This document shows positions 1,968 to 63,785 of a stretch of 64,000 nucleotides of DNA, piece by piece. The position numbers were made by a program, and so were the translations under genes. Each line of letters opens with the position of its first letter. Position 1 is the stretch's first letter. Location of the stretch: NCBI GenBank assembly GCA_025403435.1, contig CM046347.1, positions 19,673,507-19,737,506 of the forward strand, given 5' to 3'. Below the pieces are notes generated by a model, which made no database searches, was not told where the DNA came from, and saw only the letters and a list, made by a program, of their open reading frames with translations. The stretch comes from Artocarpus heterophyllus (Eukaryota; Streptophyta; Magnoliopsida; Rosales; Moraceae).

Positions 1968-2131
1968 GGCCTGCCGGACGCCCTGCTTCGGCCTGCCGAA
2001 CTGTACAGTTCGGCCTGCCGGAAGCAAAGTTCAGCCTGCCGAACATGTCCCCAGATTCGGCCTGCCGGTCGGAAGAACACCGGCCTGCCGATCATCACTC
2101 CGGCCTGCCGAACATGAACTTCGGCCTGCCG
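1968..2131. repeat. Array of eight palindromic GGCCTGCCG boxes in the G1 LTR
   Basis: Nine-base cores (GGCCTGCCG or one mismatch) begin at 1968, 1990, 2012, 2033, 2059, 2082, 2102 and 2123, so steps are 20-26 bp and mostly 21-22. The better copies extend to TTCGGCCTGCCGAA, a perfect six-base inverted repeat around a CT centre. Spacers are mostly unrelated, so the box and not a long unit is conserved. First-to-last distance is 155 bp. Function unknown. Confidence 0.9.
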
Positions 2132-2614
2132 AACTGGGAAAATCCAGAAATCCCAGCCACGGGTTTCTCGATCCCCAAAATCCAAATCTGAATTCCAACC
2201 TGTTTTTCTCAAATCCCAGGCATGAAAAACAATCATAGTTGATAGAAAAACATTCTAAAACATATTTGGAATCATTTAAACAACATTTGAACTCAAAATC
2301 TTCAAAAATCCGAAAATGAGAAAAAGAGGAGAAAAATGAAAATCTTGAATCCAATCCGTTTTTCTTCAATCTAGGTTTAGATTCTAGTTGTTCTAAGCTC
2401 ATTTAACACAATTCCACGGTTTTCTAAGCTTAAACAAGCTTAGATTTCAAAAACACACAAAATCGAAAATTTTGAAAAAAGTTTAGAAATTTCGAATCTA
2501 ACCTCGAATCGAAGCTTCAATCCACGTTCTCGGTCGCCGAATCACGTCCCCGAGCTTCCTCCGTGCTGTTCCGAAGCTTGGATTCGAATGGAAATCAAAA
2601 TTTTTTGAAGAAAT

Positions 2615-2705
2615 TAGAGAGAGAGAGAGGCTGCCGAGTGAGAGAGAGGGAAGAGAGAGAGAGAGCCCGTGAGAATGAAGAGGGAGAGAGAGAAGAGAGA
2701 AATAA
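2615..2705. repeat. GA-rich simple repeat in the G1 LTR
   Basis: Purine-rich runs of GAGAGA, read as CT-rich on the element strand. The related LTR at 2982..4566 has a similar GA-rich tract near 4280..4380, so it was present in their common ancestor. CT-rich tracts are frequent near plant transcription starts; a promoter role is only inferred. Confidence 0.7.
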
Positions 2706-2981
2706 ATAGAGAAAATCGGTGGGCGGTTTTACTGTGCGAAAACCATGTGCCGCCCACGGTTTTGTAAAACAGAGTATTTTTAACATTTTACAAATTGTTG
2801 TGTTTTAAAACTCAAAACATCATTTTAAAACAAATGAGAAATCATTTGAATACATCAGTTTAACAAAACAACCAAAATTCAAATCCAACCAAATAATCTA
2901 ATTAAAGTTAAAACTTTAATTATGGCACACTAATTCATCATTTACATTACATTAATGTTAAATAAATTTCGGGACGTTACA

Positions 2982-4566
2982 CAGTTCAAAGGAAAATATC
3001 ATTTCAACCCAAAGAGCCAAGTTTCAATCCTAGGACCTTTCTTCCTCTTTAAACCTAGAAGGATGATTTAAAAAAAAAAAAAAAAAGCAGGAAAATGTAA
3101 GCGGAAGGCTCAGTAGAATAATTAGTTAAAACAAATTATTTAAAAATAACAGTTATAGATAAAAATATCATTCATAAACTAATCTCAAGATCTTAACAAA
3201 CATTAATAATTACTTACTTGAATGAAACTTGATAAAATATCACCATACGGGTTTTGAAAATCAGAAAGGCTATCAAAATACAATTCTTCCAAAAATATCA
3301 AAGACTGAAATCATTCTTAAAAGAAAACATTTAAGAAATAAACTTTGGCCAAAATAAATTAAAAAAGGCTGCCAAAGAAAGGGATATGAATATCTTACCT
3401 TAATTCAAATCTAATAACATAGCTCCAAATAAAATTTAACATATGCTTTATATACGTTCAAAACCTTAAAAACTGTATTTAAAATTAAAAATCACATTTA
3501 ACAAACATCATTATGTCAATTTAATTATTAATGTGCCATTTGCTCAAAATAATCATAACACAAAATCTTAATTCTTTTAAAACATTTCTAACTCATTAAA
3601 CATTGAAAATCGAAGAAAAATACAATTCTCCAAGTTCATAGTCGGCCTGTTGAACATCTTGGTTCGGCCTACCGAACCTGTACAGTTGGGCCTACCAAAC
3701 TCTAGAACCGGCCTGCTAAACTGTTACAGTTTAGCTTGTTGAAGATATGAATCTGGCCTGCCAAACTTCTTGAATCCCGCATGCCGAAGATCAAGTTCGG
3801 CCTTCCAAACTGGGAAAATCTAGGGACCTGAGACTTTAAGTCTCGACCTTCTCAAGCTCAAAAATTCAAATTAAAACCTGTTTTCTTAATCCCAGAGCAT
3901 AAAAATCATATAGAAAGCTTAGAAAATCATACTAGAACAGATTTAAATAATTTTCTCCAAGCTTAAACTCAATTTTACCTTTGATTTGAAAATCAAAGAA
4001 AAATGCAAAAACTTGATTAAGTTGATTTTTGTTCAAATAAAGCTTAAATCCATGATAAAACAAATCCTATAAGCTTAGATTAAACATTATCTAAGCTCAC
4101 CAAAGTTCAGATTCAACAAGCAAAGAAGGATTAAAAATTTGAAAATAAAACTTTGAAATTTTAAAGAAAAAGAAAAAGCTAACATTTAATGGCATTTTTG
4201 GATAAAAAACTTGGTGGATTGAACTCATTTCCATCTCTAACTTGGCGGAAATAAAACATTGAAATCAAAATTTTCAGAAAGAAAGAGAGAGAGGGAGAGC
4301 TAAGTGTGAGAGAAAGAGAAAGAAAAAGAGAGAGCATGAAAGAAAAGAAAAAGGAAAGGGAAAAGAAAAAGAAAAGGCCCAAGGGTGTTTTCATAACTAT
4401 GGAAAAATGTAGGATAAAAAAGTTATTTGGTATTTTAAAAACTAAAAATCAAATTTTTAAATGTAGCAAACAAAATAAAATCTTCAATGACCAAAATTAA
4501 CACTTGACACACTTAATAATTAAACTTAACATAATTAATCCCACTTTAAAATTCAAGGGTGTTACA
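2982..4566 (-). repeat. Diverged LTR related to G1 (G2), probably the target of the G1 insertion
   Basis: The minus strand starts TGTAACACCCTTG at 4566, like the start of the G1 LTR. It shares landmarks in the same order: a GA tract, an eight-box array (3644..3807), and a segment near 3090..3110 matching 1225..1245 of G1 (AAGGCTCAGTAG). It stops abruptly where the G1 LTR begins at 2981. The simplest reading is that G1 inserted into this older relative, with the rest of G2 outside the window to the left. A 19-base A run lies near 3069..3087. Confidence 0.7.
3644..3807. repeat. Array of eight palindromic boxes in the G2 LTR
   Basis: Degenerate copies of the GGCCTGCCG core begin at 3644, 3666, 3689, 3710, 3733, 3755, 3778 and 3799. 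Number (eight) and first-to-last distance (155 bp) equal those in the G1 LTR, while the boxes themselves have more substitutions, mostly C-to-T or G-to-A changes such as GGCCTACCA and GGCCTGTTG. Confidence 0.85.
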
Positions 4567-8732: not shown

Positions 8733-9207
8733 TGATGGTCAACACCACGTGCAGTTGGGCAACGTGCTCAGACTACCTTGCCTTGCCCTTCTCGACTTCA
8801 CTATTTAGTCCTGCAATAAGACAGAATGTCTTGAAGGTCAAAGGGGGACACAGTGTGGTGCTAGCCAAGGACTCTCCAATGCTCAAGTCAGGTATCCATT
8901 AGGTTAAGAGAGAGGCTAAGGGTAGGTTAGAGAGAGTCCACTTACCTTGGGGGTAGAGTAAATGCTTTTATTTATAGCTCACCAATTGGATCAGGTGTAA
9001 AGCAGGTTCGACTCTTGACCTGAGTGCTTTGAATGGTGGTGTCAAGGGGGGTTGGTGACAGGCGTCGTGATTCCTATGGCAGAGGGACTAGTCCCATCCG
9101 GGGCTATAGTGATGCCATGTGGGCCTATGGACAGTTTGGCGGCCGCCACACCTAGTTAGGACGTGCCTCGATGCCGAGAATAGGGCATGTGTCATGCTCG
9201 GTTTGCG
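8733..9207 (-). repeat. Left part of the Tat-type 3' LTR (R/U5 side)
   Basis: On the minus strand a TATA box (GAGCTATAAATAAAAGC, near 8961..8977) is followed downstream by CTTGAGCATTGGAGAGTCC and TTGCAGGACT, an arrangement familiar from Ty3/gypsy Tat LTRs. The sequence is cut at 9207 by copia A and appears to resume at 18949. The outer end is uncertain. Confidence 0.5.
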
Positions 9208-10535
9208 TGTTAGACGTGTATGCCCTAAGGAGTAAAAATGTAACATATTTTTGAAGACATTTTTATCAATAAAGAATATATTTATTATTCATATACCAAA
9301 TATTGTCCTCTTTATGTTTATATTTGTTAAATGTGTGATAAACAAACAAAAGTCTGAGACTATCAGTCTAAACCTTTAAGAATTGGGCATATGATAGATA
9401 GATTATGCGAAAGACATCATTCTGAAGGTGACAGTCTAAATTATAAGATCTACAATCAAGATAATAAAGTTGGGCCCTTTATTCATGCAAATATTATTAT
9501 GCTATCTATATCCCTAATGTGCGATGGTTTGTCTTACCCATCGAAGGTAGACTCTATGAATAAAAACATTGGTGCATTGTTATAGGTGATGATGCATTAG
9601 ATTGGGACATAAAGTGAATTGATTTGGATTAATAATTTTGTCTCGACAAATCGATTCACTTTAGACAATCATGTGTTGTATCTTAATCTTGAGATTTATG
9701 GAGACATGGCTCTTGATAGCGTAGACCTGCTATGCATAGATATGGAAGAATCGTTGATATCCTCTTATATGCATTATCTTGTAATTGAAAAACTAGAGCG
9801 CTCGACCATTTAGATACATAGGTGTAACCAAATGGTATACTGTCTTTGGATGGTAAGTTTTTCGATGGTGAGATAATGGAATGGAAGATAAAAATAATCA
9901 GGAATGTAAGATAGAATTTGTTCTTAAGCCAATTATAGATAATCCTATGAGGGTACGACACATTATGATATGTCATGGAGACTTAGCTGTATGGGCTTCG
10001 TAATTCTATATAGTTCTAGAGTGTAGCTTTAAGCTTTTAATGGAATAGCGTTAGAGTTGATAGTTGTGAAATGTATATATAGGATATAGGTTTCATAATT
10101 ATTAGAAGCATAAACCATATAAGTCCATTAGGTCCTCTTTGCTAGCTTATAAAATTCTATAATGATACAATATGCTTTTCCAATAATTGGTAACTTATTT
10201 CATATTATTAGATTGGCTAAGATTTGGTAGGATTAGATAATTCAAGTGTATTTGTTGGTTGAATTAATTTTGTAGAAAATTAATTCAAGATAAATTTGTT
10301 GAATTATCGGGATCAGATAATTCATGTTTGTTTATCGATTTGATTAATTTTGAATAAATTAATTCAAGATAAACTTGTTGAATTATCAAGAAAATTTATT
10401 TTCCTAGAGATTATCTATATATGATTGTTTTAATTAAATAACTTTTCTATTGTGTTATTTGAATTAAAACTGAGGCTCTATCCCAAGAATCTTGGGTGGG
10501 AAATAAAGATTCACAGGGATCAAAAATCGCAAGTT

Positions 10536-10609
10536 TGATAGGCCAATCTTCAAGTTCAGCCTGCTGATGGACTAAGTTCGGCAGGCCGATCTACCAGTTC
10601 GGCCTGCCG
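10536..10609. repeat. Four palindromic boxes in the copia A 5' LTR
   Basis: Cores begin at 10536 (TGATAGGCC), 10558 (AGCCTGCTG), 10579 (CGGCAGGCC) and 10601 (GGCCTGCCG), steps of 22, 21 and 22 bp. Box orientation differs, as expected if the palindrome itself is what matters. The array ends 110 bp before the TATA box, so it is in the U3 enhancer position. Confidence 0.88.
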
Positions 10610-10718
10610 ACCGAGCGATAAATGGATCACGTGTTTTTAAGTAGATTTTATCAGATATTGACCCTGATTCAAATTTTTGAAGTCTTATCTGATAAGGACT
10701 GACCCTGGACCCAACCTC

Positions 10719-10726
10719 TATAAATA
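10719..10726 (+). promoter_or_regulatory. TATA box of the copia A 5' LTR
   Basis: TATAAATA followed by GGGAGTGAGTC. The same TATAAATAGGGAG context occurs in the LTRs of A (3'), B and C, marking the U3/R promoter of the family; F has a changed form (TATATAAA). Confidence 0.8.
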
Positions 10727-11098
10727 GGGAGTGAGTCTCATAAGTTATTGAGATCAGTTGAGAGATTAAGAATGAGACTTTGCCAGTGAGACTCTAAAAG
10801 CTCCCCTGAGAGCTATTGTTCACACATCACGAACTATAGCTTTGGTTTTCTCAATTGATTGGAAGGAGGGTCACCGAGTCCACATACACTCCGATCGTGG
10901 ATAAAGAATAGCAAAGAATGCCAATTGGTTGAGGTCTTTCTGGAACGTTATACTCTTCACAGATTGCAGGAGCTTTTCGGCAAACAATGCTAGTAAGATC
11001 TTGTTAATTTATGCATATAGTGTGTCAAACTTGTGTTTTAAAAAATGCTTTGATATTAAAAATTTTAAAATTTTGCTGCGTACTATTTTTTCAACAAT

Positions 11099-11110
11099 TG
11101 GTATCAGAGA
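11099..11110 (+). other. Primer-binding site of copia A
   Basis: TGGTATCAGAGA, complementary to the 3' end of initiator Met tRNA except for its last base, two bases after the LTR. Sibling copies read TGGTATCGGAGC (B) and, with two changes, TGGTATCAAAGC (C). Confidence 0.85.
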
Positions 11111-11618
11111 CAGGTTTTTACATAAATTTGTAAGTTTGTGATCATGCTATATGTATAAAGTATATGATCTTAATCTCTCATATGCTTGAATTTAATCTTA
11201 TAAAGAGTTGGCACTCTAGGTTTCTATATATTTTTATGTTATTATGGATTACATGGTGAATGTTATTAATTAATTATAGTTGATTAAATTATTATGTAAT
11301 TATTTATTTATTAATTAATTTATACCAGTTATGGTTCCTTAGAAGTTAGAATGTGTATCTAGGTTTTTTGTGTAATTAGATGGCAGACTATCATTTCCGT
11401 CTAGGAATTATTATTTAATTTCAAATTTGTAAGAATTTTGTAATTGAATAATCATTTAGAGAAGATAGATCTAAGAGGCCAATCTAGAAGATAGATGATA
11501 GCATCATCAGGTATTTTCTGAGTCTCTTATTTTATGTTTTTGAATTGTTGAAAATAAAATTAATAAATTGCATTAAAAACTGTTTTTTTTTTCTAAAAAG
11601 CATGGTTTGTGCTCGGTC

Positions 11619-11818
11619 GGCATGCCGAACCTTTAAGTTTGGCAGGCCGATAGTCACAGATTGGTAGGCCAGACTTCAGGTTTGATAGGCCGTCGGTGGG
11701 GCAGAAATCTGATGGCTCTGGTAGCAGGCCAAACTTTCTATTTCGACAGGCTGATATGTCATGACCAACAAGTCGACCTGAAAAGATCTGTAGGCCAAAG
11801 GGTTATGATCGACAGGCC
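11619..11818. repeat. Leader array of palindromic boxes in copia A
   Basis: Cores begin at 11619, 11640, 11662 and 11683, then after a 39-bp gap at 11722, 11744, (a decayed site at 11766), 11788 and 11810. The same four-gap-five layout occurs in the leader of B, and four-gap-four in C. The array lies between the primer site and the gag start, in transcribed untranslated RNA. The remaining leader (11111..11618, 11819..12789) is AT-rich and noncoding. Confidence 0.85.
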
Positions 11819-12789
11819 GATCACATAGATCGATAAAACCGCAGAGAACTGGAAATTTTTCTAGAAAAGGTGTAGTTTTCTGATGTAGTTTTGATTTTAT
11901 TTTTGGGATAATTCTGAGAAACATTAAATTTGGTTATAGCTGAAAATATAGAGTATTCGATCTATGCGAGATTGAAGACTTGAAGATGGATATTGCACAA
12001 AGAAGGATACAACTTGAAGATTCAAGGATGAAGGGTCGATAATATGTTTCGATTTATCTCTTGTAATCTTTATTTTCTATTCTCTAGGGTGGAACTATAA
12101 TATTACAGTTAGTTACTATTATTTTGCTTTGCTTGTCTGCATTATAATATGATTTGCCATGTATATTGATAACATGTCATATAAAATAGGGAGTGCCGCT
12201 CATTAAAATTGTTCATGCGTGTTCTTAAAATAAAACCTTGATTTCAAAAGAATGAGTAGGAGAAAGTTTTTGAAGAGAGGACCTACAGCCTCCATCGTTG
12301 GTCTATAGGTAACACATGGTGGTTTCAACCCCTAGGAAGAGACTTTATCATGTACCAGGTTAAATCTCCTAGAGGATAAAGTATTTTAGCATGATTTATC
12401 ATTGCACACCCCTAGGTGGTGATTATAAATCATCGATAAAATGTTAAAACAATGGTTATACACTCTTGTTAATTTTATTATTAATCTCTCCTAGGAGCTC
12501 TGTTGATAACATTAATGGCCAAAGAAGCGATTATTAATATATGCTAGATCATACGGTTCCTGGATGGCATATATTAATCAGGAAGGGATCTATATTCCTG
12601 ATTAAATTTGGCAAGACTCCCTTAAGAGCTTGTTGAATTCTGAGTTGGGAATTATCGTTGTAAGGTTATGATATTTTTAAGGTTTTGACACATAAACACA
12701 TTTATGCTATACATGATTGTGTTATCTTACTAAATTATTATGATATGTTTGTTTATATTTGGTATATGATTCTTTATTGTAGATTAAAA

Positions 12790-15700
12790 ATGTCTAAAAA
12801 TGCTTTATCATCGATACTTTACAAAAAACAATTAACCGATGAGAACTATAATAATTGGAAACAGAACCTAAACATCGTCTTTTCTTTTGAGAAACTGAAA
12901 TTTGTGTTGACAACACCTTGTCCTCTAGAGCCTATGGGAGATTCCACTGACGATCAAATCCAAGCATATGATCATTGGAAAGATATCGATGATCAGGCCC
13001 GTTGCTATGTTTTGGCCAGCATGAATAAGGTGCTGCAGGCTCCACATGAGGATTATGAGATTGCTAGGCAGATCTTGGATAATCTGGAAGACATGTTTAG
13101 AAGCCAGGCCTTAACAAAGTGGCAATGGGTGCTTCGAAAACTCTTGAACTACAAACAAAGGCCGAGGATGTCTGTGAAGGAACATATGATGTTTGTCATG
13201 GGTTACCTTGCTGAGGGTTAGATCAATGGAGTTGACATCGATGTTGAAACTCAGATGACTATGGTCATTGAGACTCTATCTAAGGAATTCATTTCGTTTA
13301 AAGCTACATTTAATTTGAGAAATAGATAGGATATGACTTTAACATAGTTGATGAAATAGTTATAGGATTTTGAACTTCTGATCAAAGAGTCTCCTACTAG
13401 TGGCGAGGCCAACTTGGCAGCTGCTTCTGGTTCCAATCCTAACCCTGGGAATGGAAAGAAACAATGAGCCAAGAACGGGAAGTCTTCTATTCTTGTGAAT
13501 AGCAAGAACAAGAAGCACAAGAAAAAGAACCCAAAGAAGCTCTAGTGCTTCTTCTACGGGAAGGTCAGGCACATAAAGAAGAATTGCAAGGACTTCCTTT
13601 CAGAAGGAGGTAGGTGTGACTTTTGTATTTTGAAACTTGTTTAATTGAGGAATCCAGTAACATTTGGGTCATACATTTCGGAGCAACTAATCATGTTTGT
13701 GTTTCTCTGTAAGGGTTCAAAGAAACGAGAAGTTTGCTGCATGAAGACTTCACACTTTGGATGGGCGATGGATCATTGGTCTTAGCTGAAGCAGTGGGAG
13801 ACGTCCATCTCTATTTTGATAATTATAGGAATTTAATTTTGCAAGATTGTATTTATGTTCCTAAATTTAAAAGGAATTTGATTTATGTAGCTTGTTTATT
13901 TAAAGACTCATATTTTGTTTCTTTTAATAATAAAGTGGTGATTCATAAAAATAAATCTTTTATATGTTCTAGATAGATGCAAAATAATTTATATTTTATT
14001 AAACCTAAGATAGACTTACTGCTTAATGTTGAGATGAATGATAATAACTCCAAAAGACTTAAAATTTCTTAAGACTTATCTTTGGCATTTGCGACTTGGT
14101 CATATTAACTGGAATATGATTCAAAGGTTGGTAAGGGATGGACTTTTAAGTCACTTAAAGGTGGAATCTATACCACAATGTGAATCTTGTTTAGAGGGTA
14201 AAATGACAAAAAGACCATTTGGGTCTAGGGCAATAGGGCTAAAGGGGTTCTAGGACTTATGCATAGTAATGTTTGTGGACCTATGAACATCCGGGCACAA
14301 AGAGGGTATGAGTATTTCATTACTTTTATTGATGATTACTCAAGGCATAGGTATGTGTAACTAATATATCACAAAAGCAAAACTTATGACAAGTTCATGG
14401 AGTTTTAGGCTGAAGTTGAAAGGCAATTGGGTAGACCCATGAAGGCACTTCGATTCGATCAAGGTAGTGAATACCTTTCTGATGAGTTTTTAGGACACTT
14501 ATTAGAAAATGAGATTTTATCCCATTTGACTACGCTGGGCACTTTGCAGCAGAATGGCATGGCAAAGAGAAGGAATAGGACTTTGTTGGACATGGTTAGG
14601 TCTATGATGAGTTATTCATCATTGCCTTTATCCTTTTGAGGATATGCATTACAAACCGCATGTTATCTTTTGAACAATGTGCCTTCAAAATCGGTTCCTG
14701 AAACTCCTCATAAGTTATGCATAGGGAAGAAGACATCCTTAAACCATATTCGCATATGGGGATGTCTAGCTCATATCTTGTTTAGGGATGTGAATAAGTT
14801 GGAAGCATGTTCGAAAGTTTACGTGTTTGTAGGACATCCAAAAGGGACTAAAAGGAGTTATTTCTATAACCCAAAGGAAAATAAAGTCGTGGTTTCAACT
14901 AATACAACTTTCCTTGAGGAAAGTTACATAAACAACTTTAAGCCTCGTAGCAAAGTGGTGCTCGAGGAGTTGGTGAGTGATCCGATCACTCCAGGGGTTT
15001 CGGTGGAAATCACTCCAATCAGTGTAGAAAAATCAAATGAACCTGAACAACAACCTAAGGGACTTCGGCGTAATGAGAGGATTAGGAGTCAACCCGAAAG
15101 GTATATATTCAATGGTGATGTCTTCTTGGCTGAACTAGATGAACATGATAGGGATCCTTATACTTATGTAGAGGCTATAGAGGATGTTGATTCAAAACTT
15201 TGGACAGAGGCCATAAACATAGAAATGAAGTCTATTGAGACTAATTGGGTCTGAGAACTTGTGGATCTTCCCGAAGGGGTTAAACCTATCGAGTGTGAAT
15301 GGATCTACAAGAGAAAGAGAGGAGTGGATGGAAAGGTCGAAACCTTTAAGGCTAGACTGGTAGCTAAGATATACACGCAAAAGGAAGGAATAAATTATGA
15401 GAAAACTTTTTTACCTACAGCCATGCTTAGGTCTATCTGGATTCTCTTGTCCATAGCTGCCGTTCTCGACTAAGAGATTTGGCAGATGGATGTCAAGACT
15501 GCTTTTCAAAATGGCTATCTTGATGAGTCCATTTATATAGAACAACCTGATGGGTTCAAGGCTAAGGGTCAGGAGGGTAAGGTTTGTTAGCTGCTAAAGT
15601 CAATTTATGGACTTAAACAGGCTTCTTGTTCTTGGAACATAAGATTTGATCAAGTAATCAAGACTTATGGGTTTGCATAAAATGTGGACTAACCATGTGT

Positions 15701-16849: not shown

Positions 16850-16863
16850 TGCAAGTGAGAGAT

Positions 16864-18948: not shown

Positions 18949-19350
18949 ATACGCTGAGGTTGGATTCTTCTCGTAGCCTGGTCGGTGATGGTTGGGCTTT
19001 GAGAGCACGTTCTTTCGACCAGATGATGGGTTGTAAAGGGATATTAGGGCAACTTTTTCGATCGGCTTGGTTGGTGCATCCTGACCTATTGTTCCAAGGG
19101 TGCTTATCGAGCACACCCCCAATAGTAGCCCCTGGTGGACCTGGTCGTGTGATCAGCCAAGATGCACTATCGGACAAAGTCTCCTCGGTATGTTACATGT
19201 GCTCGTCTTGAAGGGGTAGCTTGCTTGGAGCCTTATCGTGTTTTCTTCTCTGAATGCCCAACGCCTCCGACATGTGTTGCCTTGTGATTATCGCTTTCCT
19301 TAACAGATGTAAGCATTACACCTCTTCGTACACTGTGTCAATAGCTGCCC
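18949..19350 (-). repeat. Right part of the Tat-type LTR beyond copia A
   Basis: GC-richer sequence continuing the LTR interrupted at 9207 (U3 side on the minus strand). Its outer edge could not be fixed. Overlapping open frames on both strands have no recognisable domain. Confidence 0.4.
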
Positions 19351-48381: not shown

Positions 48382-48395
48382 ATCTCCCACTTGCA

Positions 48396-51300: not shown

Positions 51301-52324
51301 TAAAGATAGACGTCTCCTGCTGCTTTAGCCAACACCAAGAATCCATCGCCCATCTGAAATGTGAAGTTCTCATGCAGCAAACTTCTTATTTCTTTGAACC
51401 CCTGTAAAGAAACACAAACATGATAAGTTGCTCCAGAATCTATGACCCAAGTGTCACTTGATTCCTCAACTAAACAAGTTTCAATAACTAGAAGATCACA
51501 CTTATCTCTTCGAGAAAGGAAGTCCTTACAATTCTTCTTGATGTGCCCAACCTTCCCATAGTAAATGCACTTAAGCTTCTTTGGGTTCTTCTTTTTCTTC
51601 TTTTTATTCTTGCCATTTGTATAAATAGAAGATTTTTCATTCTTAGCCTTCTGTTTTCTTCCATTCCTAGGGTTAGGATTGGAACTAGATGCAGTAGCCA
51701 AGTTGGCCTCACCACTGCAGGAGTGTCATTGAACAAATTTTTGAACTCTTGTTACTGGTTCATCAGCTCCGTTAAGGTCATATCCTGTCTATTACTCAAA
51801 TTGTATAAAGCTCTAAACGAGATGAACTCCTTTGATAGAGTCTCAAAAACCATAGTCATCTATGACTCGGCATCGATATCAGCTGCATGGGCTTGAGCCT
51901 CAGCAAAGTAACCCATGATTAACATCATATGCTCCTTCACAAGAGTCCTCGGTTTTTGTTTGCAGTTTAAAAGTTTCTGAAGTACCCCTTGCCATTTTGT
52001 TATGGCTTGGCCTCCAAACATGTCTTCAAGATTATCCATGATATGCTTCGTAGTCTCATAATCTTCATGTTGAGCCTGCAACGTGTTATTCATGCCAGCC
52101 TTAACATAACAGCGAGCCTAATTGTTAGCATCTTTCCAACAATCATACACTTGGATTTGCTTATTAGTAGATTCCCTGGTAGGTTCAGTAGGACACAGTG
52201 TTGTCAAGCTAAATTTTAGTTTCTCAAAGGATAGGACAATGTTTAGGTTCCTTTTCCAATCATTGTATTTCTCACTAGTTAATTAGTTTTTATCAAGTAT
52301 CAAAGATAAAGCATTTTTAGACAT
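48396..52324 (-). pseudogene. Copia C gag-pol polyprotein, broken
   Basis: Start MSKNALSL at 52324 and stop at 48396. Gag (about 51500..52324) with a zinc-knuckle region; protease that keeps the canonical motif as WVIDSGATYHVC (near 51430..51465); GAG-pre-integrase (50805..51215, 'LWHLRLGHISLNRIQRLV'); integrase with 'DRGGEYLSDEFLEHLLENG' (50569..50754); hinge (49922..50230); RT N-terminal part (49581..49892, 'MDVKTAFLNGYLDESIYM'); RNase H end (48396..48620). Multiple stops and shifts. Of the three family members only this copy keeps the protease D-S-G-A. Confidence 0.9.
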
Positions 52325-53976
52325 TTTAACTACAATAAAGATCATATACCAAATATAAGCAAACATTCTATAATAGTTCAGTAAGATAACACAATCAAGT
52401 GGACAAGCAATTGTGTTTATATGTCAAAACCTTGAAAAAATTACAACCTTACAACGATAATTCTTAACTCAAAATTCAACAAGCTGCCTTGGGGAGACTT
52501 GCCAAATTCAATTAGAAACATGCATCCCCTTCGATTAATATATGCCATCCAGGACCCGTCTAATCCAGCATATATTAATAATTATTTTCTTTGGCTATTA
52601 ATTTTATTAATAAAGCTCCTAGGGGAGGTTAATAATAAAATTAACTTGAATGTATAACTGTCATTTGAACTATTTTATCCATGATCTATGATCACCACCT
52701 AGGGGTACACAACAATAAATCATGCTAAAATAAATTATCCTTTTAGAGATCCAACCCAATACATGATGAAATTCCTTCCCAGGGATCAGGATCACCATGT
52801 ACTACCTATGGACCAACAATGGAGGCCGTAGGTCCTCTCTTCGAAAACCTTTTCTCACTCAATGTTTTTAAACAAAGGTTTTGTTTTAAAACATGCACGA
52901 ACAATTTTTAATGAATGGCACTCCTTATTCTATATAACATGTTAACAACATACATGGCAAATCATATTATAATGCACACAAGTATAGCAATCATGCAAAG
53001 CCACAAGCAAAATAATAATAAACATCCATAATATTATGGTTCCATCCTAGAGAAAAGAAATTAAAGATTACAAGAGATCAACCGAAACATATTATCAATT
53101 CTTCATCTTGTATCTTTAAGTTGTATCCATCTTCATGTAGAATCCATCTTCAAGTCTTCAATCCTGCATAGATCTAGTACTTTATTTTTCCGGTCATCAC
53201 AAAATTTCATGTTTCTCATAAGTATCTCAAAAATAAGATCAAAATTGATTGGAAAACGTACATTTTCTGAAACCATAGCTCTTTGCTGGCCTGTCGATTT
53301 TTGTGATTGGCATGTCGGTCATAACCTATTGGCCTGCCAAACTAGACTGTTTGGCTTGCCGCTAAAGCTGGCTAAATCCTGCCCCACGGATGGCCTGTTG
53401 AACTGAAAGTTGGGCCTACCAGTCTACGACCATCGGCCTGCCAAGCCTGAGGGTTCAACTTACCAATCGAGCTAAATTCACGTTTTCTAGAAAAAATAGT
53501 TTTTACTCAGTTTTTCAATCTTATTTTTAACAATTTAAAACAATAAAAATTTAGAGACTCAAGAAAAACGGTGGAGCCGCTGTCATCTGTCTTCTAGATC
53601 CATCTTCACTCCGAATGATTATTTAATTACAAAATTTTTACAAATTTAAAATTAAATAATAATTCCTAGACGGTGATGATAGACCGTCATAAATTACATA
53701 AAAAACCTAGATACATATTATAACCTCTAAAGAACCATAATCAGCATAAATTAATTAATTAACAAATAATTAAATAATAATTTAATCAACTATAATTAAT
53801 TAATGAACATTCACTATATAATCTCAGGACAACATATAAAGATATAGAAACTCTAGAGTGTTAACTCTCTAAAAAATTAAATTCAAGCATAGAAAAGATT
53901 AAGATCACATAATTTATATATATATCATGGTCACAAGCTCATAAATTTACATAAAAACCATGGCTTTGATACCAGT
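52325..53976 (-). other. Untranslated leader of copia C
   Basis: Noncoding leader like that of B, with a box array (53288..53465) and the primer site TGGTATCAAAGC on the minus strand at 53963..53974, which differs from the tRNA complement at one position. Confidence 0.8.
53288..53465. repeat. Leader array of eight palindromic boxes in copia C
   Basis: Cores begin at 53288, 53309, 53331, 53353, then after a 39-bp gap at 53392, 53413, 53435 and 53457. The 39-bp gap is at the same place as in A and B; the outermost box of B is not recognisable here. Confidence 0.86.
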
Positions 53977-55830
53977 TGTTGGAAAATGAGAAGCAGGGGA
54001 ATTTTAAAAAATTTTAAAATCATAGTATTTTTCTAAAACACAAGTTTGACATGCTATATACATAAATCAATTAGATCTTACTATCCTTTGTATGCCGAAG
54101 AGCTCCTACAATTAGTGATGAGAAGAACGTTTCAGAAAGGCCTCAACCAACTGGCCTTTATTGCTATTCTCTATCTACGATTGGAGTATGTATGGGCACA
54201 CGTCATATAGCTCTTCCCCGATGATTCACTTTTCAACCAATTGAGAAGACCTAGAGCCAAGGTTCATGATTGTGAATAATAGCCCTCAAAGAGTTTTAGA
54301 GTTTCTCATGATAGAGTACTCACTCTTAACTTCTCTATTGATTTGAATAATTGAGAAAACTCACTCCCTATTTATAGAGGTCAGACCTAGGGTTAGTTAT
54401 TATCAGATAAGACCTTAAAAATTCGAATCTGGATAAAATCACATAAAAAATACATAATCATATAACCGCTGAATCAGCAGGCTGAACAGGTAGATCGGCC
54501 TGTCAAACTTGCAATAATTTGATCCTTGAGAATCTTTTATTTCCCACCCAAGATATCCAGATAAAGCCAAAGTTTAAATTCAAATAACCTAATAGAGAAG
54601 TTGTGTGATCAAAACAACCATATATGGATAATCTCAAAGAAAATAAAATATTCCCGATAATTCAACAAGTTTATCTTGAATTAATTTACAAAATTAATTC
54701 AACCGATAAACAAACCTGAATTACTTGAACCTATCGAATTTCAACCAATCTAATAATTTAACATAAGTCAACAATTTATTGGAAAAGCATACCATGTCAT
54801 TACAAGATTTATTATGAGCTAGCAAAGGGGACCTAATGGACCTATATAATTCAAGCTTCAATAATTATTAAATACAATATCCAAGATACATATTTTATAA
54901 TTATCAACTCTAACACTACTCCACTAAAAGCTTAAAGTTGTACTATTGAACTATATAAAATTACGAAGCTCCAAATTAGCTAAGTGTCCATGACATATCA
55001 TGATGTGTCGTATCCCCATAGGATATTCATAATCGGTTTAAGAATAAATTCCATGTTATCTTCCCAATTATTTTTAAAAACTTACCATCCAAAGACAGTA
55101 CACCATTCAGTTACACATATGTATCCAAATAGTCGAGCGCTCTAGTTTTCCAATTACAGGATAACGCATATAAGAGAATATCATTGACTCCACCAATGGA
55201 GCTGTGGATTATATATCTATGAATAATAGATCTACGCTATCAAGAGTCATGTCTACAATATACCAGTATGCGTACCATCGCAAAGTCAAGATGTCACCCT
55301 TTGCTACTTCAAAAGACATAAGTTAAGTTAATGGGCTTATTAGTCATTTCAAGATTAAGACATATGATTATCTAAAGTGAATTGATTTGCACAGATAGAA
55401 TTATTAATCCAAATCAATTCCACTTTATATCCCCATCCAATACATCATCACCTATGACAATGTACCAATGTTTCTACTCATGGAGTCCAACTCTGATGGC
55501 CAAGTCAAGCCATCTTTTGTTAGGGATATAGATAACATAACAATCTTAGCATGAATAAAGAGCCTAATTTTATTCCCTCGATTGTGGATCTTATGATTAA
55601 GACCATCATCCTTAGAATCATATCTTTCACATAATCTGTCCATCATATGCCTGATTCTTAAAGGTTTAGACCGACAATCTTAGAATTTTGTTTGCTTATC
55701 ATACATTCAAGAAATATAAACGTAAACAGGACAACATTTGGTATATGAACAATAAATGAACTCTTTATTGATAAAATGTCTCCAAAAGCCTATTACAACA
55801 TTTTACTTCTTACGGCATACATGTCTAACA
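53977..55830 (-). repeat. 5' LTR of copia C (1854 bp)
   Basis: Plus-strand ends TGTTGGAAAATGAGAAGC and CATGTCTAACA. Only two boxes (54475 and 54497, 22 bp apart) against about four in the partner LTR; the length difference at this point is about 43 bp, two box units. The TATA box is at 54369..54376. Confidence 0.92.
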
Positions 55831-57474
55831 TTTGGTTCTCAACTTCAACCTTAAAAAGCTTGAACTTATCTAAGGCTTCATTTTGTTCTAATTAAGTACA
55901 CATATGTGTTTTTAGAATAATAATTAATAAAAGTGATAAAGCATCTTCTTCCTCCTCTTGTTAAAATTCCATTAAACTCCCAAATATGGGTATGAATCAA
56001 ATCCAATATTTGAGTGTTTCTTTCAGCTTTAGGAAAGGGTTTCTTAGTCATTTTTGCTTGTATACAAATCTCACACTCATCATGTTTTTCATCTTTGCAA
56101 TTAATTAAACTATGTTTAGACATGTATTTCAAAAATTTAAAGTTTAAGTGTGTTAAACATGCATGCTAAACATCCACAGAATCAATCATATAAGCAAAAC
56201 TCATATTTTATTATTATTGATGCTAAGCATTTACAAACCATCACAAGAATATCCTTTTCATACAAACGACCCATTCTTAGATACAATACATGTATTGCCC
56301 TCAAATACAATCTTTAGACCATTCTTACACATAATACTGGTACATACAAGATTTTCCTAATATTCGTAACATGGAAGATATTTTTTAAGGTCACTTTCTT
56401 CCCGAAAGTAAAGTTGATCTTCACTATTCCTTTCCTGGCAACTATTGCTATAACATGATTCCCCATGAGAACTATTTGTCCTTCTTTCTACACTACATAT
56501 GATAAGAACATACTTTTATCATTGCAAACATGAATGGTGGCATCGGAATCGAGCCACCAATCACAGGACTTTGTTGTAGGCACATTGGTTTCAGTAATCA
56601 TGCAAATTTGCATCTCTAAGACCATGGCACAAATCTTTTTGGGTTTTTCTTCAATAACATTGGCTTTGTTGGAGTTCACTTATTCCCTTTTCTTCTTATA
56701 CCTACACTCACTTTGACGATGGTCTTTTTCCTACAAAAGAAACAATTTAAGGTAAACTTTTTCTAGTCATTATCGGATCTTTTACGCTTCTTGTCATTAT
56801 TATTCTTGAAGTTCTTTGAGAACTCGCTAGTCTCAGTGACATTAACTTTAGAAGAATCCATGATCATTCCCTTGGGATCACGATATTCTCTTCTTCGATC
56901 CTCAAGTGCTTTTGAAGTTCCTCCAAAGTTATGTCATCTCTTCGACGAAGGGGTTTCTTTCGATAATTATTCCAACTTTGGGGCAATTTACCAATAATAG
57001 CCCCCACTTGAAACGATTCAAAAATCTCTACCTTTAACTCTTTGAGTTTTGTAACAATGACTTGCGATTCATGAATTTGATCTAGAACGGACTTAGTGTA
57101 AACCATAACATATTCTAAAAATTTCAGGATGAGGAATTTGTTTGTACCTTCCTTTTCAGTTTTGTACTTGTATTCTAGAGAGTTCTATATCTCCATTGGA
57201 GACTCCTTGTTGTGGTAGAGATCATAGAGATGATCAGAAAGGGTGTTGAGAATGTGTCCCCGACACATGAATTCATCATCTTCACTTTTTTCCTAGCAAT
57301 CTTCACTTCACCAGAATTGTCCTCCTTTGGCTCTAGGAGTGGCTCCGTCTTTGGATCAAGGACATAAGCAATTTTGAGTACCGTGAGAAGAAAGAACAAT
57401 TTCCTCTTCCAATGAGTAAAGTTGGTACCATCGAAACAATCAAGTTGCACATTTGGATTGAGAAAAGATGGCAT
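55831..57474 (-). pseudogene. Copia D gag, protease and integrase start (fragment)
   Basis: Right piece of D on the minus strand. Gag begins MPSFLNPNVQLDCFDGTNF at 57474, continues to about 56864, then a zinc-knuckle remnant (CFFC near 56740), protease with D-S-D-A in place of D-S-G-A ('WWLDSDATIHVCNDKSMF', 56488..56679), and integrase start with the C-x-x-C half of the zinc finger ('CEICIQAKMTKKPF') and 'FITFINYYSKNTYVYL' (55878..56132). Frameshifts and stops separate them. The frame continues across element C into 46454. Confidence 0.86.
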
Positions 57475-57522: not shown

Positions 57523-58225
57523 CGTATTTTTTGAGAATAGAGAGAATGGAGGCTAGATTTTCTAGAAATAAGAATGTGTTTGAGACATATATAAAACACT
57601 TTCCTTAAAGGTTTTATTTACCCTCACTTGTCCAAGTTGCAAGAGAGTTTTTTTTAGCAAATTATCCCCAAGATACAACAAACACTTGAATGCAATATTT
57701 AGCAACAATATATTGTTCTAGAACAAGATATAAATTCTGTTATAATTTTAGAGTTTATAAAAGACAGGGGTACCATTTGAAGAATGGTCACAACTAAATC
57801 AATCCATACAACCTTTACAAAAGGTACCTCATCAAATGTAAAGGTATCTCTTTATTTTGTGTATGTATATGTCTATTACAATGGACGTGTTTGTTGCTAA
57901 TTGATGTTTAGGATACAAACCAATGAATATACTGGTTCAAAATAACTCAAAAGACACCAAATATCATCATATATTAGTTTGGAAGAGCGCCGCGGTGCCA
58001 ATTTATCGGAGTCGTGGCGTTAGGTACATGGCACCAAAATTTCTCATAAGAGCTACTGGACGCGGTGGGACCCAAAGGCCAATGTCACGTCACCACACCT
58101 AGGCAAGCTAGCACTAAGACTCTAGGCTCTCTGCCTTTTTCGTGCACTGATTGCATGTTTCGACACCATGGCCTCAACTTTTGAGTGCCACGGTGTCCCG
58201 TGCTGACTAAAAGACACCTTATAAA
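57523..58225 (-). repeat. 5' LTR of copia D
   Basis: Matches the 33109..33865 LTR from its start (GTATTTTTTGAGAATAGAG) to near TGCTGACTAAAAGACAC. The last part of the partner is missing because gypsy element E begins at 58226, so E probably truncated or landed in it. No clear primer-binding site is seen beside it. Confidence 0.78.
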
Positions 58226-58474
58226 TGTAACGCCCTCTTACAGATGTCACAGATATCGTTATATTCATCCTTTTTGCCATTATTTAAGATAAACTATTTA
58301 AATGAAAACATAATTTGGTAATATACCCCAAGATCCATGCATACTTATTATTTTTTTAACATTTAATAAATTACTTAATTATAAATATTCTTTAAATAGT
58401 TTCTCAACACCAAAACAATAAAGCCACAATTTAAATAAAAATTAATAAAACTTTTAAAATCTGCTTACACAGTT

Positions 58475-58658
58475 TGGTAGGCCAAACTTTGGACATCGGT
58501 AGGTCGAGCATGACCGGCAATCCAAACTTCAGCCATCAGCAGGCCATCTGAGGCTCTGCAAAATCAGGTTTTAAAATTTCTAAGTCGGCAGGTCGATACA
58601 GGGTAGTCGACAGGTCGATACAGGGTATTCGGCATGCTGATGCCAACATCGGCAGTCC
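58475..58658. repeat. Eight palindromic boxes in the gypsy E LTR, first array
   Basis: Cores begin at 58475, 58497, 58515, 58537, then 58586, 58608, 58630 and 58650. At 58586..58630 two neighbouring units are almost identical over 22 bp (CAGGTCGATACAGGGTA), showing recent duplication of one unit. Confidence 0.82.
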
Positions 58659-61121
58659 GATCTGAAATGGTCAAAAGGGTGATCTACTGTTAAAAACAAA
58701 TTTTTAATGTTAAACAAGTCTCAATATTTCAAAGTGTGGAAGGATAAATAATAACCATATAAAGTCATAGAGACATAGTTCAAAACTTAAAAACTCTTTA
58801 GATAAACATACTCAAAAATAAAACATAGTTTATATACTTTAGTCTTCTTTCTTGGCTTTCTTCCGTTTTTCAATTCATTGTTCCTTGCTCACACGCTTGT
58901 CTTTGCCCTCCGCCTGATCCATGGTCCTCTTACCTTTATCTACAACGTGATCATAACTAAGTAAGCAAAATGCTTAGTAAGTACATTTTCTATCTCACAA
59001 TGTAAAACATTTTATGAACATCTTTATGAAACATCATATCCATAATCATCATCATCATAATAGTGCACTACGCACAATGTTATATAGAACATATCTTTTG
59101 TTAACATTAACTGTATTAAAACTTTGGTCATTTTATCTTTAGGACCCAAGTGTTGCACCATTATCATCATTATAGGCGCACCGTCATGAGAGGAGAGGGG
59201 TAGCTAATCCTAAACCAAACATGACATCATAACATAAACATAACATAAGATAGGGTGTGCAACACTCACTTAGGTGATACATATCTATATACACACACAT
59301 ATATACTTGTGCACTTTGAAAAACATCATCATCAAAACATGCATAAAATTTTTTACATCAAATCTTTCATCACAAAACTATCATGAACATATATAAATTT
59401 CAAACTTTATAAATTTTATCATGTTGCAGGTGAGAATGTACTTACCTGTTTTGTATTACTAAACCTTAATTGAAGATGACGTCGCCGCTGTCTTGATGTG
59501 CTCATTCCTTGGTGTGTTCATGTCATACATTCATTTAAAATAAAATTAACATTTATCTATATTCAAGGAATCATCCAATACCATAATACATATACACCTC
59601 CATTTCAAGAAATACATGAACACAAATATATTTTACCATCTTATAAGTACTCATGCACAAACTGCAACACTAATATCTGCCTGACCCTTATGTATTCATA
59701 ATTCAATAACTCATAATTTGCACACAATTAGAGCATGAGACTCTAAAGGGACAAAGCTAACATATAAACATAATATCATGATTTTTTGTTGGTCATAAAA
59801 ATTCCATTTGATAACCAAAACAAGTCACAAACTTTATAGCATAAAATTTGCCAGCAATAGTTGGGCAGTGAACAACCTTAACTAAAGTCTATAAAATAAA
59901 TTATCTATAACATAAAATAATTCCATAAAAATATTACATATAATAGACACCTAAAACTGCATCATATCCAAAAATTCCCTTTAAATAAATTCAGAAAAAT
60001 CCATACCATGTATTAGAAGTTAGAGACATCAATAAGCTTCAAACATATCAAGTAGTGAGTTACTCGTGATCATCATTCTCAAACATATAAAATAAATTTA
60101 TTCAGACCCTAAATTTCTTATGACAACTTATTAACATATAAATATAGAAGCACAAAAAGTCTCATTGTCAAATAAATTCATTTAGTTATACAAAAACACC
60201 ACACAACAAGAAGTCTAGAATTTCACTTATTGACAGCCATAAAACCTAGCCTTAAAGACAATTCAATAACGCATAACATATTCATCATTCACCATGAGAC
60301 TTTCTAGTTCAACACTTAATATATACATGAGTATATTTGCCAAATTTTGTGCAAAATATCATTCATGTGCATTATGAACAAGGACTATATTTTTGTACAA
60401 CATAACCAATTAGCAGCAGTTCACTATGAGTGGTAAAGACTAAAAATTCAATATCTTAACTTAGAAAACTCCAAATGGCATGAAATGTTGAGGAACATAA
60501 CATATCACATATATGAACATCATACTAAAATTTCATTGCAAACGAAAACTCCTAGACAAAAATACAGTAGTGGGATTAAAGGGGAAAAATACATTTCAGA
60601 AATAAACCAAGAACAAATTCTTACCTCAAAACAATTCTTCTCAAATTTCCTTGAATCCGCCCAATATTTCTTTCAATTCTTTGCAGAAAAATTTGGGAAG
60701 GGAAAGGGGAAGAAAAACATGGAGAAAGAGAGAGTGTGTTTCTGAAGAGTTTTTGGAGAGAGAGAGAAAAAAACGATAGAGAGATAGTTTACATGAAAAT
60801 GAAAATAACGTAAAAGAGAAAACTCATCTTCTCTACAATTATTAGAATTTCCTGACATAAATCAAGGTGAATTTACGTGGGGAATGGAGAGAAATAGGGG
60901 AAAGTCAAAACAATTTGTTTCACTTACCATATTTCACAATTTCAAAAGAGGAAACCCTTATCAAATATCCAATCATCCACAAAAGTCAAATATTCTATTA
61001 CCTAAAACAAGGAAAAATACCAAAAATTATGCTAATCAATCAGAACTTATCATTCAATCAAAATCAATCATCCATGCCACAATTTTGGCGATTACCTATT
61101 AATTACTCGTCACCTATCTTC

Positions 61122-61243
61122 AGCTTACCGATGGTTTACTTTGGCCTGTCGAAGCGTGAGCTTCAGACTACTGATTAAATTCATCAGCTTTTCATTTCGT
61201 AAGGGACAATTCAGCCTGCCAAACTTGGAGGATTGGCTTGCCA
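61122..61243. repeat. Second box array in the gypsy E LTR
   Basis: Cores begin at 61122, 61143, 61165, 61186, 61213 and 61235, mostly 21-22 bp apart; some are degenerate (AGACTACTG, AGCTTTTCA). Clear forms are GGCCTGTCG and AGCCTGCCA. Confidence 0.7.
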
Positions 61244-61469
61244 AACTGCCGCATAGACTAAAATATAACAAAACATTAATTAATTGCTAAATAATTATCA
61301 AGCATACAACATAAATGACATGAACATCTGGAGCACATCAATTCCACGTGACTGTCACCTGTCATAATACTCAAAATAAAATAGTCAGTAACATTATTTC
61401 ATAAAAAAAATACTTAACGTCGTTATTTTTCTAACATTAACCGTTACATGAGAATTGACGGGTGTTACA

Positions 61470-61483
61470 ATTCTCCCCACCTT
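61470..61483 (-). other. Polypurine tract of gypsy E
   Basis: On the minus strand AAGGTGGGGAGAAT, directly before the 3' LTR; this primes plus-strand DNA synthesis in LTR elements. Confidence 0.75.
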
Positions 61484-61580
61484 ATAAGAGTTTCATCCTC
61501 AAAACTCAAAACAGTTGCAGATACTTAGTTCTTATGTCATCTTCGCATTCTTATATAGCTTCTTCCACTTGGTGACTTCG

Positions 61581-61780
61581 TCATAAAATTTTGACCAAAG
61601 GAATTTCTTTATTCCTTAAGATTTTAGTCTTCCGATCTAAAATCTCCACTGGCTTTTCTTCATAGCTAAGGTAATCTCGTATTTCAATCACCTGTGGCTT
61701 AATCACGTGCATAGGATCTGGGACATATTTCTTAAACATCGAAACACGGAGCACCTTATTAATGGATGACATTTTCAATG
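61581..61780 (-). pseudogene. Gypsy E integrase, C-terminal tail
   Basis: Reads '...LRVSMFKKYVPDPMHVI', 'DYLSYEEKPVEILDRKTK' and 'LRNKEIPLVKIL', then stops at 61581. This is the chromodomain-side tail of plant chromovirus integrase. The frame begins immediately next to the solo LTR F and is continued by 63786..64000, so the insertion disrupts it. Confidence 0.82.
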
Positions 61781-63785
61781 CGTTGGAAAAATAGTACGTA
61801 GTGGAATTTTAATTTGTTATATTAGAGTATTTTCTAAAACACAAGTTTGACACACTATATGCATAAATTAACCAGATCTTACTAACCTTTGAATGCCGAA
61901 AAGCTCCTACAATCAGTGAAAAGAAGTAACATTAGAAGGACCTCAACCAATTGGCTTTCTTTGCTATTCTTTATCCATGATTGAAGTGAGTGTCAGCTCA
62001 CACGTATAGCTCTTCCACCAGGTGATTCTCCTTCCAACAAGTAGAGAAATACACAAAGCTATAATTTATGATTTGTGAATGATAGCCTTCCAGGGAGTTT
62101 CAGAGTCTCACTCTAGATTTATCAACCGATCTCAATAATAAAGAGACTCACTCCCCTTTATATAGAGGTTGGGTCCAAGAGTCAGTCCCTATCAGATAAG
62201 GCCTTAAAAATTTGAATCAGAATTAAATCAGGATCAATATCTGATAAAATTTGCTTAGAAACACTTGATCTTTTTATCACTGGTCAGCAAGTTGAATTGG
62301 CAGATCAACTTGCCGAACGTCCTCAATTGGCCAGCCAAACTTAAAGATCGGCTTACCGAACCTCCGATGGAAGATCCGTACGAATCTTTATTTTCCACCC
62401 GAGATTCTTAGGATAGAGACTCAGTTTTAATTCAAATAATCCAATAGAAAAGTTATCTGATTAAAACAGTCATATCTAGGTAATCTCTAGGAAAATAAAT
62501 ACTCTTGATAATTCAACAAGTTTATTTTGAATTAATTCAAAATTAATCCAATCGATAAATAGATATGAATTATCTAATTCTGATAATTCAACAAGTTTAT
62601 CTTGAATTAATTTTATCACAAAATTAATTCAACCGGTAAACAAACATGAATTATCTGATTTTATCGAATTTTAGCTAATCTGATAAATCTAACATAGGTC
62701 ACCAATTATTGGAAAAACACGCCGTATCGTTACAGGATTTTTGTGAGCTAGCAAAGGGGACCTGATGGACCTAGTTCAAGCTCCCAATAATTATGAAACC
62801 TAATATCTCATATATACATTTCATAATTATCAACTCCAACGCTACTCCACTAAAAGCTTGGAGTTGCACTCTCGAACTATATAGAATTACAAAGCCCATA
62901 CAGCTAAGTGTCCATGACATATCATAATGTATCATATCTCCATGGGATTATCCATAATCGGCTTAAGGATAAGTTCTATCTTACCTTCCTGAATATTTTT
63001 ATCTTACGTTCTATTATCTCACCATCGAAAACTTACCATCTAAAGACGTTATACCATTCAGTTACACATTTGTATCCAAATGGTTGAGCGCTCTAGTTTT
63101 TCAATTATAGGATAACACTTATAAGAGGATATCACTACTCCTAAAAAGGAGTTATAGATTCCATATCTATAAATAACAGGTCTACGGTATTAAGAGTCAT
63201 GCCTCCAATGTACTGACATGTGTACCACTATTAAAATGTAGGTGTCACCCTTTGGTACATCAAAAGATGCAAGTCAAAACAACAGGACCACTATTCATCT
63301 TAGGATTAAGACACAATACAGATGATTGTCTACAATGAATCGATTTGTCGAGACAAAATTATTAATCCAAATCAATTCACTTTATGTCTTGATCCAATAC
63401 ATCGTCACCTATGACAATGCGCTAGTGTTTCTATTCACGGAGTCCACCTCCGATGGTCAAGACAAACCATCTCCCAATAGGGATATAGATAACATAACAA
63501 TCTTTACGTGAATAAAGTGCCCAACTTTATTTATTCGATTGCGGATCTTATGTTTAAACTGTCATCTTAAGAATCGTGTCTTCTGCATTATCTCTCTATC
63601 ATATGCTCAATTCTTAAAGGTTTAAACCGACAGTCTCAGACTTTTGTTTGCTTAACATACATTTAACAAATATGAACGTAAAGAGGATAATATTTGGTAT
63701 ATAAATAACAAATAAATTCTTTATTGATAAAAATATCTTCAAAAACATATTATATTTTTACTCCTTAGGGCACACACGTCTAACA
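61781..63785 (-). repeat. Solo LTR of the copia A/B/C family (F)
   Basis: 2005-bp LTR with ends CGTTGGAAAAATAGTACG (TG mutated to CG) and ACGTCTAACA. No gag-pol, primer site or polypurine tract adjoins it; gypsy E integrase continues on both sides. Flanking pentamers CAATG and CGATG match at four of five positions, indicating a target duplication. Four boxes begin at 62285, 62307, 62328 and 62350; a TATA-like TATATAAA (minus strand) is at 62157..62164. Confidence 0.9.

Follow-up and report, generated by a model that had tools for sequence, protein, structure and literature searches.

Arrays of one palindromic CGG-CCG box shared by Copia and Gypsy retrotransposons in a 64-kb window of the Artocarpus heterophyllus genome

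Several transposable elements (TEs) carry clustered short motifs in their non-coding DNA. Palindromic CGG-CCG boxes, repeated upstream of the TATA box, have been described in the Copia retrotransposons known as Sireviruses; these RM boxes were reported in 13 elements and called Sirevirus-specific and absent from classic Ty1/copia elements, and the same paper found no common binding site for one factor (PMC2829016). In maize, the palindrome CACCGGACNNNGTCCGGTG occurs in two TE superfamilies, Copia and Helitrons, so there is a precedent for sharing across superfamilies (PMC10760457). Tandem short motifs that gain and lose repeats are also the targets of the VANC proteins of VANDAL elements (PMC5735166, PMC10398659), and the Drosophila gypsy insulator contains 12 Su(Hw) sites in a 5' untranslated region (PMC2374998). 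Here, we describe a 64-kb stretch of Artocarpus heterophyllus DNA (contig CM046347.1; "the window", 64,000 bases), which is plant nuclear DNA dense with old long terminal repeat (LTR) retrotransposons. One box, TTCGGC-NN-GCCGAA, recurs in arrays in both Copia and Gypsy elements of this window. An earlier, sequence-only reading had not recognised the box among known LTR motifs, a statement to be corrected in the light of the Sirevirus precedent (PMC2829016). On balance, we think it probable that the arrays are cis-regulatory platforms in which every box would be a target for a dimeric DNA-binding protein, most likely one that the host encodes.

The box is a dyad with a 6+2+6 layout and contains two CpGs. 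Sites matching TTCGGCNNGCCGAA at no fewer than 9 of its 12 fixed positions number 56, whereas 20 first-order Markov shuffles averaged 7.6 and never exceeded 16; at least 10 matches are reached by 24 sites, versus 0.7 (maximum 3), and at least 11 by 12 sites, versus none. The 10-position core, TCGGCNNGCCGA, is matched at 8 or more positions by 57 sites, 53 of which lie in LTRs or leaders, which together make up 26,726 of the 64,000 bases (with boundaries that we set ourselves); the other four (576, 6978, 20730 and 32453) are all isolated. Nearly all boxes in the window thus lie in LTRs or leaders, as had been proposed, and the comparison with their frequency elsewhere favours that proposal. The "about 80" copies of the earlier reading come down to 57 at this threshold and 68 at 7 or more of 10 positions within the array windows (41 in Copia elements, 12 in the Gypsy element E and 15 in the Gypsy lineage G); a count near 80 would take in more decayed copies. 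The reported spacing is upheld: 27 of the 38 neighbour distances of up to 150 bp fall at 20–23 bp, while each of 29 other arm permutations gave at most two such distances, and 100 shuffled motifs at most three (mean 0.06). Of the 68 sites, 49 have AG or CT between the arms, so the palindrome originally put forward as ideal, GGCCTGCCG, is only one version of the box; its dyad stands, its fixed centre does not. A left-hand AGT extension is present on the sense strand in both superfamilies (17/41 Copia, 6/15 G and 4/12 E sites), a hint of a common origin or of a longer putative binding site. CpG density is 2.6–10.3 per 100 bp in the arrays, as against 0.5–3.2 in the rest of the 10 LTRs.

Pfam, run on 10 of the 25 open frames of at least 110 residues, places array carriers in both superfamilies, as the earlier reading had held. 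Elements A, B and C and a solo LTR, D, form one Copia family by mutual similarity, with LTRs of about 1.86–2.09 kb. Pfam finds Retrotran_gag_2 and SH3_retrovirus in A, gag_pre-integrs and Pol_BBD in B, and gag_pre-integrs in C. Element G has a Gypsy gag (Retrotrans_gag, Ty3_capsid), and element E terminates in the Gypsy-type domain SH3_Tf2-1 (1e-14), followed by a 3.2-kb LTR. The limits of the G, G2 and E LTRs were set by eye. The carriers are as follows.

820..2979, minus strand: 5' LTR of Gypsy element G (TGTAACGTCCCG...TGACA), with gag at 2-757
2980..4564, minus strand: related Gypsy LTR carrying array G2, truncated or solo, adjoining the G LTR
9207..18951, plus strand: Copia element A, with LTRs at about 9207-11098 and 16865-18951
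35619..45276, minus strand: Copia element B, with LTRs at 43240-45276 (5') and 35619-37641 (3')
46452..55831, minus strand: Copia element C, with LTRs at 53974-55831 (5') and 46452-48382 (3')
58225..61472, minus strand: 3' LTR of Gypsy element E (TGTAACACCC...GGGCGTTACA), the upstream pol end being broken by solo LTR D
61782..63800, minus strand: solo Copia LTR D, inserted in pol of Gypsy element E

The primer binding site of G, at 817, has 0/12 mismatches to the pattern searched and presumably corresponds to initiator-Met tRNA. No primer binding site adjoins D, which is flanked by a possible 5-bp target duplication (CATCG/CATTG, read by eye). The insertion of D puts an array-bearing Copia LTR about 0.3 kb from the array-bearing Gypsy LTR of E. 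We would provisionally place the Copia family near Angela/Tork.

Fourteen arrays were found: 10 in the Copia family, two in the related Gypsy LTRs (G1 and G2) and two in the LTR of Gypsy E. They are listed below.

1965..2133, minus strand: array G1, 8 boxes, spaced at 20–23 bp with one spacing of 26 bp, all centres AG
3641..3809, minus strand: array G2, homologous to G1, 7 boxes at 7/10 or better, with all 8 positions aligning to G1
10534..10611, plus strand: array in the U3 region of the A 5' LTR, 4 boxes, the first decayed, with a TATA motif at 10717
11616..11821, plus strand: leader array of A
18355..18433, plus strand: U3 array of the A 3' LTR
36145..36200, minus strand: U3 array of the B 3' LTR, 3 boxes, one whole unit below the 5' LTR
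42530..42740, minus strand: leader array of B
43762..43838, minus strand: U3 array of the B 5' LTR, 4 boxes at 21 bp
46961..47038, minus strand: U3 array of the C 3' LTR, 4 box positions, 3 of them at 7/10 or better
53288..53445, minus strand: leader array of C
54473..54507, minus strand: U3 array of the C 5' LTR, 2 boxes remaining
58473..58661, minus strand: array E2, towards the 3' end of the LTR of E, with 8 boxes matching at 7/10 or better
61119..61245, minus strand: array E1, towards the 5' end of the LTR of E, in a part taken as U3
62283..62360, minus strand: U3 array of solo LTR D, 4 boxes at 21–22 bp

Cluster "F" of the earlier reading appears to be the array of solo LTR D. The clusters of that reading are not independent, because A, B, C and D belong to a single Copia family and G1 and G2 are homologous; about five independent arrays remain, in three families (Copia U3, Copia leader, Gypsy G, E proximal and E distal). 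Arrays are not present in every LTR element of the window: none was found near a Gypsy reverse transcriptase motif at 24611 or a Copia gag at about 57490, both of which belong to element fragments.

The distribution of substitutions bears on what the boxes do. With one LTR taken per element (A5, B5, C3 and D, four of the seven aligned Copia LTRs), transversions affect 1 of 40 arm columns, against 10/32 in spacers, 4/8 in centres and 42/262 in flanks. When sites were defined in one element only, these directed tests gave arm transversions of 1/90, 1/120, 0/90 and 1/120, and sliding the arm mask from -10 to +10 gave 2 transversions at +1 and 4–13 at the other offsets, compared with 1 in register. 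Over all element pairs of the seven LTRs, which are non-independent, transversions number 4/580 in arms, 23/116 in centres, 91/467 in spacers and 466/5131 in flanks. The Copia leaders (three sequences; 11/220 in arms, 4/42 in centres, 47/319 in spacers and 60/550 in flanks) and the G1–G2 pair (3/80, 1/16, 18/73 and 50/210, respectively) point the same way for arms, spacers and flanks, as raw counts. Arms are, thus, better kept than spacers in both superfamilies, and a free centre is clear only in the Copia LTRs. Conservation of the arms alone in these LTRs is the mark of a predicted protein target with two half sites, and this pattern, with centre and spacer left free, supports the earlier suggestion of a binding array for a dimeric protein.

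In the Copia LTRs, the box also keeps its place relative to the TATA box. The last, proximal box ends 95–118 bp upstream of the motif TCTATAWAWA in all seven Copia LTRs, including B3 and C5, despite their lost units. By alignment, B3 lacks one box unit that B5 has, and C5 lacks two that C3 has; as the two LTRs of a single element thus differ in whole units of 21–22 bp, box number seems to change once an element has inserted. Such differences, together with the near-constant spacing, orientation and centre in G, would suit a functionless minisatellite unit spread by slippage, which families would then share through transfer or by coincidence. A repeat under no selection would not, however, keep its arms while losing its spacer and centre in the Copia LTRs, hold its distance to the TATA box in 7/7 LTRs, or recur in U3, leader and two Gypsy lineages, and we judge this explanation very unlikely. 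It does draw some support from a collection of bacterial and archaeal genomes, where an unrelated 22-bp repeat carrying a version of the core suggests that such repeats can arise independently.

That repeat, at L006:4990-5243 in a contig binned as a delta-proteobacterium, is a tandem array with the core TCGGCAGGCCGA and 12 boxes; its spacers are near identical, in contrast to those of the plant arrays. In the whole collection, 14 stretches with two close boxes were found, all in bacterial records, and were set aside as unrelated to the plant elements on the basis of their box positions and a short stretch of each. Among viral contigs, five stretches fitted the gag pattern, none of which was confirmed; Copia pol likewise gave no confirmed locus, and no array was found there.

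We favour a reading in which the boxes are protein targets. Each box would be a dyad of two half sites of 5–6 bp (TTCGGC / GCCGAA) around a 2-bp centre, accommodating one dimer. With a box every 21–22 bp, or two helical turns, the dimers would lie on the same face of the helix and might bind together. In the Copia elements, the U3 array precedes the TATA box by about 95–181 bp and another array occupies the leader, which would put the likely transcription start between them. Since the box is common to elements whose LTRs are otherwise almost entirely dissimilar, the protein would most probably be host-encoded. The likeliest role of the arrays may be to promote or protect element transcription, and activation, insulation or repression by the putative bound protein would all be possible. 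A likeness from animals is the Drosophila gypsy insulator, in that a tight array of sites for a host protein lies in an untranslated region of an LTR element, binding being predicted here; it differs in having zinc-finger sites with a non-dyad printed consensus, in belonging to an animal element and, in the excerpt, in having no U3 array named (PMC2374998).

Several points weigh against this reading. The Fisher p-values from the four Copia elements (0.0017 for arm versus spacer and 0.026 for arm versus flank) are modest because only four elements were compared. The centre is near-constant in G (AG in 14 of 15 sites, with G1 and G2 centres differing at 2/16), as opposed to mixed in Copia (16 AG and 11 CT of 41), and the transversion rate of Copia leader centres, given above, is not far from that of their arms. 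Finding sites by core matching favours conserved arms, a bias that the directed tests reduce without removing, and arm conservation rests on Copia and G, element E being a single copy. The left AGT is less often mirrored on the right (1 Copia, 4 G and 1 E site), so the box unit is not fully symmetric. Array sites vary in the Gypsy elements: E1 is near the 5' end of its LTR, and G1, G2 and E2 are apparently downstream of the likely start, a position that appears unusual for a plain promoter activator, although Gypsy transcription starts were guessed from CT-rich sequence. Finally, the evidence comes from one 64-kb window, four Copia elements and two Gypsy lineages.

The decay of the arms counts among the evidence for the favoured reading and bears on a different explanation as well. 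Of 119 arm mismatches, 95 are C>T (49) or G>A (46), and between the 5' and 3' LTRs of the same element, transitions reach 23/90 in arms versus 69/886 in flanks, as would be expected of methylated CpGs decaying in dead copies; transversions in the same comparison (0/90 and 20/886) are too few to differ. Compensation between the two CpGs of a box, when tabulated, gave only small counts. This decay and the two CpGs in each box would suit a silencing platform, in which hairpins of box-rich RNA would give rise to small RNAs and methylation, a role put forward for the palindromes of maize Sireviruses; small-RNA hot spots are reported at Sirevirus palindromes (PMC5311732, PMC10760457). RNA from the three arrays folded, of the 14, indeed folds better than its shuffles (z = -5.78 for G1, -3.11 for the A leader and -2.90 for E2), but self-complementary repeats are expected to give such scores anyway. 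Pairing between neighbouring boxes of the Copia U3 arrays exceeds that of slid versions (19.6–51.0% of cells paired), as palindromes do by themselves, and shows no covariation above shuffles (73.4% versus 73.2% of cells paired; score 0.121 versus 0.133), so RNA folding looks like a by-product. The earlier suggestion of a source of phased 21–22 nt small RNAs is neither supported nor contradicted by this result. There would also be no clear reason to keep such a liability unless the boxes did something else, and we regard a silencing platform as unlikely.

The same results bear on a signal acting in the genomic transcript, either in dimer formation or through contact between the leader array and U3, which is also present at the 3' end of the RNA. 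The boxes can pair mutually, all arrays lie in regions expected within the full-length RNA, and Copia and Gypsy boxes alike have the AGT extension on the sense strand. The absence of covariation concerns neighbouring boxes, not long-range leader–U3 pairs, and the near-equal C>T and G>A decay, which also speaks against an RNA-level signal, reflects events after insertion. We nevertheless give this possibility very little credence, less than any other considered here.

The resemblance to VANC targets, raised in the earlier reading, holds for the tandem, short, non-coding motifs and their loss and gain of whole units (four boxes in B5 and three in B3; four positions in C3 and two in C5) (PMC5735166). 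An element-encoded protein of this kind would bind the array and strip silent marks, other families having captured the target. The internal parts of the elements are decayed or, for G, outside the window. The VANC21 motif, YAGTATTAY, is non-palindromic, occurs in one orientation, is highly enriched in a single family and seldom found in other TEs, and has a TE-encoded binder (PMC5735166, PMC10398659), whereas the box described here is palindromic and is not specific to one family, being present in Copia and in two Gypsy families. As for orientation, judged by the centre, the boxes of G are nearly uniform (AG in 14/15) and those of Copia mixed. Anti-silencing of this type seems to us decidedly unlikely.

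The Sirevirus RM boxes remain the closest match. As in Sireviruses, repeated, CpG-rich palindromic CGG-CCG dyads (here CGG-N4-CCG) form an LTR cluster shortly upstream of a conserved TATA box, in 7/7 Copia LTRs here, and further copies lie in a second non-coding region, which is the leader here and the region before env in Sireviruses (PMC2829016). The RM definition asks for at least eight copies per element; leader plus 3' LTR give 8 boxes in A, 12 in B and 8 in C at 7/10 or better, the U3 arrays having only 2–4 (PMC2829016). Unlike the RM boxes as described (PMC2829016), one consensus is common to Copia and two Gypsy families here. The Sirevirus polypurine octamer, AGGGGGAG, present in multiple copies before the 3' LTR (PMC2829016), has no exact match in A, B or C. 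At the terminal tract, B and C have AGTGGGAG, whereas A has AGTGAGAG; G3>T is named as one of the most common octamer changes in classic elements (PMC2829016). The Sirevirus junction CA/ATTGG/TATCAGAGC occurs with one or two changes in each element (CA-ATTGG-TATCAGAGA in A, CA-ATTGG-TATCGGAGC in B and CA-ACTGG-TATCAAAGC in C), and some classic elements also have a semi-conserved motif at the LTR/primer junction (PMC2829016). The large Sirevirus gag, of about 660 aa (PMC2829016), does not fit the decayed element C, judging by position only, because 660 codons before the protease-like motif at 51429-51440 would start inside the leader array at 53288-53445. As the Copia family lacks two Sirevirus marks and two Gypsy families carry the box, these are, on sequence comparison, RM-like arrays outside Sireviruses, with one shared consensus.

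How the superfamilies came to share the box was approached by a sensitive comparison of LTRs and leaders (5' LTR plus leader of A, B and C; D; G; G2; E). It returned exact cross-superfamily 13–15-mers of the box, the longest being AGTTCGGCAGGCCGA and CAGTTCGGCCTGCCG, and one match of 103 columns, at 69%, falling where the arrays lie in the B leader and in G. The other cross-superfamily matches are short and mostly AT-rich (one 17-mer ranks first); outside the array regions, only matches of this kind were shared. These matches would fit descent, exchange or convergence alike. The maize palindrome is a likewise shared motif, but its second carrier is a Helitron, and its consensus and centre are different (PMC10760457). 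In the literature searched, no report was found of such boxes in Gypsy elements or of a palindrome shared by Copia and Gypsy. It is conceivable, although we consider it doubtful, that one conserved plant dimer recognizing CGG-Nx-CCG is a shared entry point exploited separately by Sireviruses, other Copia elements and Gypsy elements; the RM boxes and the boxes described here would then be target variants, and the arrays would record how a single host control switch was repeatedly converged upon or exchanged. Arrays of CGG-CCG palindromes were previously described as a Sirevirus speciality with no identified binding factor, and one consensus in the Copia and Gypsy LTRs of a single genome provides a single probe for the putative binding protein, which would allow a direct test of whether a single host regulator is the point on which plant retrotransposons converge. 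Sites of DREB/ERF, LBD and Zn2Cys6 Ppr1 proteins were compared with the box, and gave no supportable match.

Other features of the window concern the same elements or their surroundings. Of the seven Copia LTRs, five contain a tandem duplication of about 80 bp that lies upstream of the box array (10230-10387, 18051-18213, 36346-36507, 43984-44145 and 62506-62660; it is not reported for the two LTRs of C). An isolated fragment at 28282-29018 matches, at 81–91% identity, the part of Copia elements A, B and C that separates the leader array from gag. Fragments of another Gypsy-like element on the minus strand at 22150-24628, in a GC-richer stretch with the reverse transcriptase motif YMDDILV at 24611, have no box arrays. 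Rfam gave no match anywhere in the window. Eleven gag relatives were found: eight from Morus notabilis (44–58% identity), one from Ananas and two short-contig proteins at 93% and 85%. With the light-harvesting gene described next, these relatives would place the DNA in a flowering plant, probably a eudicot. Between the retrotransposons, an open frame on the minus strand (30856-31518) encodes a light-harvesting chlorophyll a/b protein; its named matches include photosystem I type III proteins, with up to 93% identity to plants among the 120 of 394 matches listed.

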